A stretch of 64,000 bases of DNA from an uncultured Acidimicrobiales bacterium (GCA_938038815.1 CALHTF010000028.1:1-64000), one strand, 5' to 3'; positions 42,204 to 46,146 are shown, numbered from the stretch's first letter. Program-made: numbers and translations. Notes: generated from the letters alone by a model not told the origin.

Positions 42204-42932
42204 GTGAGTCTTTACGAGCATCCGTACCCGTCGGCCGAGCTGGCGGCCAAGCACCCATTTATCCCGCTCGACTTCGAGCGCCGGCCCGAACCTGAGATGT
42301 TGGCACGGGCCCAACAACTGCACGACGAACTCGACCAACGGCGCAGCGTCCGGATGTTCTCGCCCGACCCGGTGCCTGCCGAACTTATCGAACTCGCCGT
42401 GTCGACCGCCGCGACCGCTCCGTCGGGGGCCCACAAACAGCCGTGGCGATTCGTGGCGATCCAGGACCCCCAGATCAAGGCCGCCATCCAACAAGCAGCC
42501 GAAGAAGAAGAACGGGTCAACTACCTCGAGAACCGGTTGAACGAAGAATGGCAAGAAGCCTTAGCCCCGCTCGGTACCGATCATCACAAAGAGTTCTTGT
42601 CGGTCGCCCCGTGGATCGTCGTGCTATTCGAAGAGCGCTACGAAGTTCGAGATGTCGACGGCGAGCCCGAACGGCGCAAGAACTACTACGTCAAAGAAAG
42701 TGTTGGTATGGCCGCCGGCATGTTCATCACCGCGCTGCACCACATGGGCCTCGCGACCCTCCCCCACACTCCGTCGCCTATGGCATTCCTGTCACAGGTC
42801 CTCGAACGCCCCGAGAACGAACGGCCCTTTGCGTTGTTTCCCGTCGGCTATCCCCTCGATGGCGTGCAGGTTCCCGACCTCAGTCGCAAACCGCTGTCCG
42901 ACGTGCTGGTGCGTGTCGGGTCGACCAGTTAG
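42204..42932 (+). CDS. Iodotyrosine-deiodinase-like nitroreductase-family flavoprotein
   Basis: This 242-residue FMN enzyme of the nitroreductase superfamily matches the iodotyrosine deiodinase branch along its whole length. RRSVRMFSPDPV and TAPSGAHKQPW (72-81) bind FMN, EEEERVNY (100-107) carries Glu103 and Tyr107, and HHKEFL carries Lys129. NYYVKESVGMAAGMF, LERPENERPFALFPVGYP and VPDLSRKPL follow. Glu, Tyr and Lys at these positions form the substrate lid that grips the zwitterion of halotyrosine in animal IYD. It could reductively dehalogenate halotyrosines or related phenols; the substrate is inferred. The GTG start follows a -10 box by 7 nt. It is convergent with the next gene and their stops overlap. 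Confidence 0.85.
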   Translation: MSLYEHPYPSAELAAKHPFIPLDFERRPEPEMLARAQQLHDELDQRRSVRMFSPDPVPAELIELAVSTAATAPSGAHKQPWRFVAIQDPQIKAAIQQAAEEEERVNYLENRLNEEWQEALAPLGTDHHKEFLSVAPWIVVLFEERYEVRDVDGEPERRKNYYVKESVGMAAGMFITALHHMGLATLPHTPSPMAFLSQVLERPENERPFALFPVGYPLDGVQVPDLSRKPLSDVLVRVGSTS

Positions 42933-44257
42933 GCCGACGACTCGGCGTTCTTCGGGAGCCAAATGTTAAACAGCGATCCTTCACCGAGCTTGCTCTCGAC
43001 AGTGATCGATCCGTTGTGGCGTTCGAGGATCCGACGACAGATCGCCAAGCCCATACCCGATCCCTCGTACTCGGCCGATGAGTGCAGTCGCTGAAAAGGC
43101 TCGAACACTTTCTGGGCGAACCGTTCCTCAAAACCAATGCCGTTGTCGCGAACCGAAATTCGGTGCCACAGCTCGTCGCGGTCGTCGGCGGCTATCTCAA
43201 TTTCTAGCCGCTTGCCCGGCTGACGGTATTTTATTGCGTTCTCGACCAGGGCGGAGAACAGCTGCTCGAACTGGCCACCGTCGACGGTCAGCGCTGGTAG
43301 ATCGGTGGCGATCGTTAGCGCACCTTCTACCTGTTCAAGACCCCGAGCGTGGGCCGCAACGGCCTCGTTTACAAGTACGGCGATGTCGACGGGTTCCGGG
43401 TGGATCGATTTTGAGTTCACGCGCGAGAACCGCAGCAGGTCGTTTACCAATACCTGCATCCGATGCGAAGCATGGCGCATCCGCTTGAGGTTGTGGAGCG
43501 ACTCCCCCGTCAACCGGTCTCCGGCCTTGGTCTCGAGTCGATCGCCGAACGCTTGGATCTTGCGCAGCGGCTCCTGCAGATCGTGCGACGCCACATGCGC
43601 GAAATCTTCGAGATCGCGGTTGCTCTCGATCAGCCGACCGGTTGCGGCCTCGAGTTCCACATGCTGGTCCGAAACCTGCTTGAGAACCCGACACTTTTCG
43701 ATCCCGAAGGCGAGCACTTGGGCAGCTCGTTCGAGCAACTGCACTCGGCGGGTCTCGACCAGCACGTCGCCCATCGAATACAGCGCGAGAACCCCGATCG
43801 GCACCTCGGTCTTGGCCGCAAACAGGAGGGCCTCGTTCACGTCGAGCTTGCGAATTTGCTCGACGATGGCCACGTACTCCTTCGACAGCGGAACGTCGGG
43901 AATCTGGTTGTCGTTGATGACCATGGTCGAGTTGGTTCGCAGGCAGTGCCCCTCAAACGATCCCTCGGCGCTGATCGCAAGCTCGTTGAGGAGTCGCTTG
44001 ATGCCGGCCGCCTCGGCTGGCGGCAAACCGTCGGGGCTGGCATCGACTAGGTGGCTCCACGCCGGCACCAACAGCTGTTGGTCGGCCTCGAATCGGCGGA
44101 AGACCATGCCGCCGCTCGCGTTCATGCCCTCGAGCAAGTTGAGCACCGCCTCGATCAAGGCGTCCTCGTCGTGGTGGGTGTTCACCAGGTGCACGACATC
44201 GAGGAAGATCTGTAGGTCCTCTGCTTTGGTCGAGTGAGCACTCGTGGTTGTTTTCAC
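42929..44257 (-). CDS. GAF-domain histidine kinase with intact phospho-acceptor
   Basis: This 442-residue soluble kinase has an N-terminal GAF domain (about 13-190), then a coiled linker (195-215). A HisKA domain has the acceptor H225 in HVASHDLQEPLRKI. The HATPase domain (about 320-437) has an N box with NAIKYRQPGK, VRDNGIGFEERF and YEGSGMGLAICRRI. The layout resembles phytochrome-like cytosolic kinases, but the GAF has no evident bilin Cys. It overlaps the upstream paralogue at 44254 by 4 nt, so the two are co-made. No response regulator gene is adjacent. Confidence 0.9.
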   Translation of the reverse strand: MKTTTSAHSTKAEDLQIFLDVVHLVNTHHDEDALIEAVLNLLEGMNASGGMVFRRFEADQQLLVPAWSHLVDASPDGLPPAEAAGIKRLLNELAISAEGSFEGHCLRTNSTMVINDNQIPDVPLSKEYVAIVEQIRKLDVNEALLFAAKTEVPIGVLALYSMGDVLVETRRVQLLERAAQVLAFGIEKCRVLKQVSDQHVELEAATGRLIESNRDLEDFAHVASHDLQEPLRKIQAFGDRLETKAGDRLTGESLHNLKRMRHASHRMQVLVNDLLRFSRVNSKSIHPEPVDIAVLVNEAVAAHARGLEQVEGALTIATDLPALTVDGGQFEQLFSALVENAIKYRQPGKRLEIEIAADDRDELWHRISVRDNGIGFEERFAQKVFEPFQRLHSSAEYEGSGMGLAICRRILERHNGSITVESKLGEGSLFNIWLPKNAESSA

Positions 44258-45591
44258 GACTGCCCCTCGATCAGTGCGGGGGTAATGGCGGTCGGGTGCG
44301 ACGGGGCAGGGGTCGCACGCGCTGGGACCGGGAGGTGCACGACGAAGGTCGCCCCTTCACCCGCTTTGCTATATGCGGTGAGCTTTCCGCCGTGGCGAAC
44401 CGCGATCCGCTTACATACCGACAGGCCAATCCCCGACCCGCTGTACTCGGCCACCCCATGGAGGCGCTGAAACGGACGGAAGATCTTGTCGAGAAACTTG
44501 CCGTCGAACCCAATACCGTTATCGGACACCGTCACCTCATACACCGTGCTGGTGGTGTTCGCTAGGCCAACGATGATGCGGGGTTCAACGCCCTCGGCCC
44601 GGAACTTGATGGCGTTGCCCACCAAGTTCTGCAACAGCTGCCGAAGCTGGGTAGGACTGCCAGACACGGTGGGCAGTTCGCCAATCTTCACCGACGCTCC
44701 AGATTCGGCGATCGCAACTTCCAAGTCGCTCAATACGTCGGCCATCACCAACTCGAGATCGACCATCTCGTGGGACACGTCGGCGGTGTGCACACTCGAG
44801 AACGTGAGCAGGTCGTTGATAAGCCGCTGCATGCGATCGCTTGCGCTGTGTATCCGGTCGAGGTAGTCGAGTTCGCGTTCGGCGAGCTGACCGACCGCGG
44901 TCTTTTCGAGTCGGTCGCCGAAGGTGATGATCTTGCGTAGGGGGTCCTGAAGATCACGGGACGCCATTTCGGCAAAGTTCTGAAAGTCGTTGTTGCTCGC
45001 TTGGAGCTTCTGGTGCACTGCGGTCATCTCGTCGAGTTGCCGCGCTGCCTCGTCGACCAGGGTGAGCTTTTCGAGGGTCATCGCCACTACCGACCCAAGA
45101 ACCTCTAGAGCGTCGATGTAGCCGCGGGCCAGGCCCTGCTGTCGGTCGCCAATGACCCAGGTCGCACCGATCAGGTTCTGGGTTCCGCGAAGCGGCAGCG
45201 TGATGAGATCCACATCGCTTTCGCTGGTCCGGTCCGCCATCGAACGGGCCCACACCTCGGGGTCGGTACCTTCGGGTGCCAGTGGCGGATTGTCGAACCG
45301 GCAGATCAAGCGTTCGCCGGTTCGGGCCGAGTGATGCGGCGGAATGAAGGCGCCGAAGAGATCGAGGCGGGTTGGAGGGGCACCGTTTTGCACTACCCAG
45401 ACCGACTCGACGCCGTCGATTGTCGTCATGACCCCCGACCGGACCACACCATCGAGTGAGCACAGAAACGCACACGTCTGTTCGAGCACCGCGTCGCGGT
45501 CGGCCAATGGCGCGATGTCAAAGATCAGCTCTTCGACTCGAGCGAGCACCGAGTCGGGGTCGACAACCCCCTGATGGTCCATGGTCGTCAT
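44254..45591 (-). CDS. GAF-domain histidine kinase paralogue lacking the acceptor His
   Basis: This 445-residue paralogue of the downstream kinase has the same order: GAF-like sensor (about 10-175), coiled linker, HisKA and HATPase. At the phospho-acceptor position it has Arg212 (EMASRDLQDPLRKI) instead of His; the codon is CGT. The HATPase motifs are intact (NLVGNAIKFR, VSDNGIGFDGKF, YSGSGIGLSVCKRI). It should bind ATP but cannot phosphorylate itself. It may pair with the kinase at 42929 as a heterodimer and transphosphorylate H225, or act as a regulator of it. Coupling by a 4-nt overlap fits that idea. Confidence 0.88.
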   Translation of the reverse strand: MTTMDHQGVVDPDSVLARVEELIFDIAPLADRDAVLEQTCAFLCSLDGVVRSGVMTTIDGVESVWVVQNGAPPTRLDLFGAFIPPHHSARTGERLICRFDNPPLAPEGTDPEVWARSMADRTSESDVDLITLPLRGTQNLIGATWVIGDRQQGLARGYIDALEVLGSVVAMTLEKLTLVDEAARQLDEMTAVHQKLQASNNDFQNFAEMASRDLQDPLRKIITFGDRLEKTAVGQLAERELDYLDRIHSASDRMQRLINDLLTFSSVHTADVSHEMVDLELVMADVLSDLEVAIAESGASVKIGELPTVSGSPTQLRQLLQNLVGNAIKFRAEGVEPRIIVGLANTTSTVYEVTVSDNGIGFDGKFLDKIFRPFQRLHGVAEYSGSGIGLSVCKRIAVRHGGKLTAYSKAGEGATFVVHLPVPARATPAPSHPTAITPALIEGQS

Positions 45592-45651
45592 ATCGGCGAT
45601 TCACGCCGAGTTTTTACCCAGCCGAACGTACGAACGGGCTGCGAACCAGGA

Positions 45652-46146
45652 TTAGCTGATCTTGCGGTACTGACCGAGCTCGACCGACTCGTCGGCGGCG
45701 GCGATCGGGTTCACCACGCTGCGGCGCTGAGGAAGCTGGGTAACAACCGCTTGCCGCTCGGCCTGGAATCGACCACGACGCAACATCATGACCCCGAACC
45801 CAAGAGCGAGGGCGTCGATGGCGAGGTGGGCATAGAGCGCATACCGGCCAAACATGGTGGTTGCGACCAGGAAAAACAGGGCGAGAGCAATGAGCGAACC
45901 GAGCACGTCGCGCCGGCGACGGGCGGCGGCAGCGGCCGACGGCGGCATCAACGGCTCGCCTTTGGGCTGGCCGTTTGTTGCGATTGGACTACCGGTCGGA
46001 CGTTCGAGACGCGACAGTTGATCGCCGAAACCACCCACCGTGGTGCGGGCAGGACGCGAGGTGAGTTGTGGAATACGCTGGATCAGCGGTGGAACAAGCA
46101 CCACTGCCCACAAAATCCCCAAAATCAACAAGGCCAAGAAGGTCAC
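45652..46146 (-). CDS. Actinobacterial membrane protein of unknown function
   Basis: This 164-residue protein starts with a membrane helix (LALLILGILWAVVLVPPLI), followed by an Arg-rich loop with LTSRPARTTVGGFGDQLSRL. Two more helices follow (VLGSLIALALFFLVATTMFG and YAHLAIDALALGFGVMML). The helix-loop-two-helix plan with a long cytoplasmic loop recurs in actinobacterial hypothetical proteins near molybdenum-cofactor and uridylyltransferase genes. The function is unknown. The start is GTG with AGGAG about 11 nt upstream. Confidence 0.7.
   Translation of the reverse strand: MTFLALLILGILWAVVLVPPLIQRIPQLTSRPARTTVGGFGDQLSRLERPTGSPIATNGQPKGEPLMPPSAAAAARRRRDVLGSLIALALFFLVATTMFGRYALYAHLAIDALALGFGVMMLRRGRFQAERQAVVTQLPQRRSVVNPIAAADESVELGQYRKIS

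Follow-up and report, generated by a model that had tools for sequence, protein, structure and literature searches.

Tandem sister histidine kinases with reciprocal residue losses in Acidimicrobiales: putative complementing halves of one enzyme

The window, by which we mean the whole 64,000-nucleotide stretch of DNA from an uncultured Acidimicrobiales bacterium that was analysed, carries two overlapping genes for sister sensor kinases on its minus strand, here called U and D. Gene U (44254..45591, minus strand; 445 aa) starts with ATG and encodes a His-less HisKA/HATPase protein, the proposed ATP-donor half of the pair, while gene D (42929..44257, minus strand; 442 aa) starts with GTG and encodes the His-bearing sister with a degenerate N-box, the proposed acceptor half. 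The genes share four nucleotides, GTGA (44254..44257, minus strand), in which D starts (GTG) and U stops (TGA). Directly before the U start on the minus strand lies a short perfect inverted repeat, CGGCG-tgaat-CGCCG (45594-45608), which could have an effect on U translation. Elsewhere on this strand, the interval between moaC and U (45652-46146) gives a weak match, far below cut-off, to the divisome protein SepX/GlpR, and a second HATPase-type match at 1395-1748 falls inside a 507-codon open frame without a HisKA match.

The initial annotation assigned a GAF-HisKA-HATPase architecture to both proteins. Pfam bears out the kinase part, with HisKA and HATPase_c scoring 41.4 and 91.9 bits in U and 39.3 and 93.3 bits in D, all above the curated cut-offs; as for the GAF part, GAF_2 is weak in D (just below cut-off) and no GAF model matches U of the window. 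The N-terminal sensor region of U (residues 1-180; 45052..45591, minus strand) is nevertheless GAF-related, as GAF_2 matches three of the ten U orthologues and the U profile aligns with the D profile over 413 columns. The remainder of U comprises DHp helix 1 with the H-box (residues 199-232; 44896..44997, minus strand), which is under lower constraint than in D, and the HATPase_c or CA domain (residues 312-423; 44323..44658, minus strand), which is under higher constraint. In D, Pfam places the HisKA/DHp region at residues 216-282 (43412..43612, minus strand); its HATPase_c/CA domain occupies residues 329-436 (42950..43273, minus strand) and is relaxed relative to that of U. Neither protein is missing a whole acceptor or catalytic domain, as both carry both. 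Receiver domains were found neither in U and D of the window nor in the other nine U proteins and the two other D proteins scanned. AlphaFold models of U and D are confident over the kinase modules (pLDDT mostly 80-97) and poor over the sensor regions, and the nearest solved kinase to U by sequence is 8f71, the kinase domain of the bacteriophytochrome RpBphP2.

The coordinates, reading frames and key residues first described for the pair proved correct. At the phospho-acceptor position U has Arg (codon 212, CGT; 44956..44958, minus strand) in the motif ASRDLQDP, and D has His (codon 225, CAC; 43583..43585, minus strand) in the motif ASHDLQEP. The ATP-binding motifs of U are intact, as had been stated, with N, G1, F and G2 boxes all present; the first N-box Asn is codon 322 (QNLVGNAIK; 44626..44628, minus strand). 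At the position of this Asn, D has Ala (codon 336, GCC; SALVENAIK; 43250..43252, minus strand). In a trans complex of CpxA the corresponding Asn, Asn356, meets the H+1 acid at the DHp-CA interface that joins the subunits, and the N356Y mutant is strongly kinase-deficient (PMC3904827).

Among 59 related genomes, each of the three congeners has the same pair, and contig C105 of the window's own genome holds a second one. An order-wide search of 397 genomes added one genome from another family (G226), whose genus yielded four further pairs, bringing the total to ten pairs in nine genomes, representing two genera and two families of one order. Class- and phylum-wide samples (395-396 genomes each, E <= 1e-65) contained no pairs beyond these. 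A scan of genome contigs returned distant relatives only, which were His-bearing wherever the site could be scored, and a scan of viral contigs added no His-less kinase. In each of the ten pairs the start of D overlaps the stop of U (ATGA, GTGA, TAATG or TGATG), an arrangement consistent with coupled translation of U and D.

Over the ten pairs, the acceptor His that is a hallmark of HisKA kinases is absent from every U and present in every D; it was replaced in none of 139 comparison kinases, these being the other fetched kinases in which phospho-site and N-box were both readable. A His at this position in close relatives, which would have told against the initial annotation, was thus not found in any orthologue of U. 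Homologous pairs do not retain Arg, however, since nine of the ten U proteins have Ser and the window alone has Arg. A functional role for the Arg itself was accordingly rejected, Ser being the usual state in U. The four other U genes of the window's genus use AGC or AGT for this Ser, placing the CGT of the window one base from AGT, and Arg212 seems to have replaced Ser recently. All the genomes are drafts, with the window Arg read from the assembly alone. Both N-box Asn residues are present in all ten U proteins, in QNLxGNAIK-like motifs, and the second Gly of the G1 box is changed in one of them only (that of G1026).

In D the picture is reversed. His, H+1 Asp, H+4 Glu and H+7 Arg are kept in all ten proteins, while a complete set of N (NxxxN), G1, F and G2 boxes fails in nine of them at the first N-box Asn, which has become Ala, Thr or Val. 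Because of this loss D is not the ordinary active kinase that it was first taken for. The same Asn is kept by 131 of the 139 comparison kinases, the other eight having His, Ser or Glu (Fisher p 3e-9, a value that overstates independence because the D proteins share one ancestor). Since this Asn is not universal among His-bearing kinases, D may retain some kinase activity. L071 4103-5308 and L171 2119-3672 encode kinases with an AAAHDLQEPLR H-box in which, as in DrBphP, the first N-box Asn is replaced by His, but which keep the H+1 Asp; L055 1021-2253 and L057 883-2253 encode His-bearing kinases with Ser at the Asn position. The sole D protein with an intact N-box Asn, encoded on C105 (L068 4282-5682), also has the longest D branch and may have kept or regained kinase activity of its own.

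This complementary pattern extends beyond the two defining sites. Mean identity over the H-box helix is 0.61 in U, 0.87 in D and 0.67 in unpaired relatives, while over the N-box region the corresponding values are 0.73, 0.41 and 0.60, and over the whole CA domain 0.60, 0.47 and 0.51. The CA domain of U is thus more conserved than those of both D and unpaired kinases, and no segment of the pair is better conserved than the phospho-acceptor helix of D. Compared column by column, with the two defining sites left out, the crossed constraint gives an interaction p of 2e-8, and it recurs within each genus alone (1e-4 and 1e-7). Among near-invariant residues, U has lost the His and H+4 Glu of the H-box and, in some proteins, its H+1 Asp, H+3 Gln and H+7 Arg as well; the corresponding losses in D are the Gln and Asn of the N-box and further positions in helix 2 and around the CA domain. 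All 20 genes are free of internal stops, and every dN/dS that could be computed is below 1, although some values are undefined and the remainder are rough because dS is near saturation.

In a tree of 53 kinase cores the ten U proteins form one clade (support 100/98), the ten D proteins another (100/97), and the two clades are sisters (91/90). Branching within U matches branching within D wherever D is resolved, which is explained by one tandem duplication whose two products were inherited together. Since all D proteins descend from this one duplication, the ten pairs do not represent separate inventions, and counts made over them are not independent. Within the window the pair lies after moaC-sepX. 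The proposition that it is ancestral at this locus is unsupported, as G001 and G002 have moaA-moaC-sepX with no pair after sepX in the stretch available, and the window pair looks like an additional or relocated copy. The pairs of C105, G001 and G002 share neighbours encoding poly-gamma-glutamate hydrolase, DsbD-like and thioredoxin-like proteins, which suggests that C105 is the older locus.

The genomic context also provides an indication of output. The initial annotation noted that no response regulator is adjacent to the pair, and none was found near it in the window; at the syntenic locus of the same genome, on C105, and in the three congeners (G001, G002 and G003), however, the pair is followed by a receiver protein of about 155 aa (154 aa on C105) and a receiver-PAS-GGDEF-EAL protein of about 690 aa (L068 1763-3847, L072 2382-4454, L074 2907-5012 and L073 8903-11014), the Pfam identification of both applying to the C105 (L068) copies. 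Having a receiver-PAS-GGDEF-EAL protein next to the pair in relatives makes c-di-GMP the likely output. The window's genome holds one close relative of the operon receiver, namely the C105 receiver itself, and we infer that the window pair probably uses the receiver encoded with its sister pair on C105. Beside the pairs of the second genus no receiver was recognised, in the open frames inspected and the neighbours scanned there.

We infer that U and D probably constitute an obligate heterodimeric histidine kinase made of complementing halves, in which the ATP domain of U would phosphorylate the His of D in trans. Tandem duplication of a GAF-HisKA-HATPase kinase would have been followed by reciprocal loss, the phospho-acceptor His and some of the H-box disappearing from U and the first N-box Asn from D; as each sister has lost a different half of one enzyme, the two are probably active only as a mixed pair. 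In the proposed heterodimer, U would place its ATP-loaded CA domain over His225 of D, forming the sole complete active site, and phosphorylated D would then hand its phosphate to a response regulator. The residues of this site are kept in all ten pairs, while the opposite site has decayed on both of its sides. With trans geometry, the kept sites would face each other, as would the decayed ones (the ATP domain of D and the His position of U), whereas a cis geometry would leave no complete site in nine of the ten pairs. The handedness of the DHp helix turn determines whether phosphorylation is cis or trans (PMC6798134), and PsBphP1, a related bacteriophytochrome, is described as left-handed (PMC11316798). 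The earlier proposal that U cannot autophosphorylate but keeps its ATP site, and could phosphorylate its partner in a heterodimer, gains strong support from the comparative evidence.

D on its own may have a different function. DrBphP uses its H+4 Glu and H+7 Arg for phosphatase activity and for binding the regulator (PMC8292422), and through the same two residues D alone may act as the phosphatase of its regulator. It is possible, and offered more tentatively than the heterodimer itself, that the pair is a heterodimer-only HisKA kinase working as a switch, with D alone dephosphorylating the regulator, U:D phosphorylating it, and the U/D ratio or separate sensor signals setting c-di-GMP.

Of the other ways to account for the pair, that in which U is a pseudokinase resembling DivL, binding D or another kinase and steering it allosterically with its ATP domain as sensor or switch while D phosphorylates itself, deserves most attention. 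Replacement of the His within an intact fold is the DivL pattern (PMC4211667; PMC9430884), the D model has DivL among its fold matches, and one D in ten keeps a full N-box. Yet the ATPase domain of DivL is reportedly unneeded (PMC9491836), while in the present pair U has the better conserved CA domain and D the weakened ATP side; we regard such a role for U as unlikely. It is less likely again that neither protein is a kinase in vivo, D being a dedicated phosphatase of the DrBphP kind and U its dimer partner or brake, with phosphate arriving from elsewhere. DrBphP has lost the same Asn (to His), lacks kinase activity and acts as a phosphatase through the H+4 Glu, which D keeps, but DrBphP has also lost the H+1 acid that all ten D proteins retain, and a purely phosphatase role for D would sit poorly with the phospho-acceptor helix of D being the pair's best conserved segment and with the strong constraint on the ATP site of U.

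Both remaining possibilities treat U as something other than a catalytic partner. The initial annotation had allowed that U might inhibit D, and as far as sequence goes, loss of the His together with an intact dimerisation helix is compatible with poisoning of an otherwise active D by a dominant-negative subunit. Degeneration of the D ATP site in nine of the ten pairs, which would leave little to inhibit, favours mutual dependence over plain inhibition; extra constraint on the CA domain of U would moreover be unnecessary for such a role, and we consider it very improbable. That U is simply decaying, with D the sole functional kinase, is hardly credible: the H-box of U does drift (two genomes have ASSELHQPLGQI) and the window Arg is apparently a recent change from Ser, but ten pairs are conserved with no internal stops and with dN/dS below 1 where computable, and the CA domain of U is the better conserved of the two. 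The HATPase domain of U is undamaged; damage there would likewise have told against the initial annotation.

Sensor histidine kinases are usually treated as homodimers. If the complementing-halves reading is correct, evolution seems to have run the classic two-mutant complementation and kept the result across two genera. The pair makes it possible to test directly how duplication turns a dimer into an obligate heterodimer, whether kinases of this group phosphorylate in cis or in trans, and whether, as predicted, splitting kinase from phosphatase permits switch-like signalling (PMC3591291). It also carries a warning that kinases judged inactive from their residues may be active when paired. Tandem HisKA pairs with reciprocal loss were not found reported in the openly accessible literature, in which the split kinase Rv0600c/Rv0601c received a passing mention only.

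The closest natural parallel is CheA3/CheA4 of Rhodobacter sphaeroides, in which acceptor and catalytic functions likewise lie on two proteins, the catalytic protein lacking the phospho-site and the acceptor protein lacking catalysis while also being a phosphatase (PMC3591291). That system belongs to the CheA family and is missing whole domains (PMC3591291), whereas U and D are full-length HisKA sensor kinases split by the loss of a few residues after tandem duplication. The segregation of the two functions on separate proteins is apparent in U and D at the level of sequence, and on that evidence the pair extends the known idea of a 'split histidine kinase' to tandem paralogues divided at the level of residues. 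EnvZ supplies the biochemical precedent, as H243A and G2-box mutants complement one another, the His-less subunit with good ATP binding phosphorylating in trans the His-bearing subunit with bad ATP binding (PMC4734776). The EnvZ mixtures were engineered, whereas U and D are natural and conserved in ten pairs, their trans scheme being proposed from residue patterns; the EnvZ mutant subunit cannot bind ATP (PMC4734776), whereas D has lost just one residue of the N-box. DrBphP resembles D in being of the HisKA family, losing the N-box Asn (to His) and keeping the H+4 Glu and H+7 Arg, and is a phosphatase without kinase activity, but it is a single protein that has also lost the H+1 acid and has no described partner supplying an ATP domain (PMC8292422). 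DivL of Caulobacter is a HisKA kinase with the phospho-acceptor replaced, as in U (PMC4211667; PMC9430884), and a separately encoded regulator of CckA whose ATPase domain is reportedly dispensable (PMC9491836); U, by contrast, stands in tandem with its sister and has its CA domain as the conserved part. RetS and GacS of Pseudomonas are two sensor kinases that act on one another through heterodimers (PMC5992135; PMC12189002), as proposed for U and D; however, both are hybrid kinases and RetS inhibits GacS, whereas U and D are without receiver domains and their losses are reciprocal.
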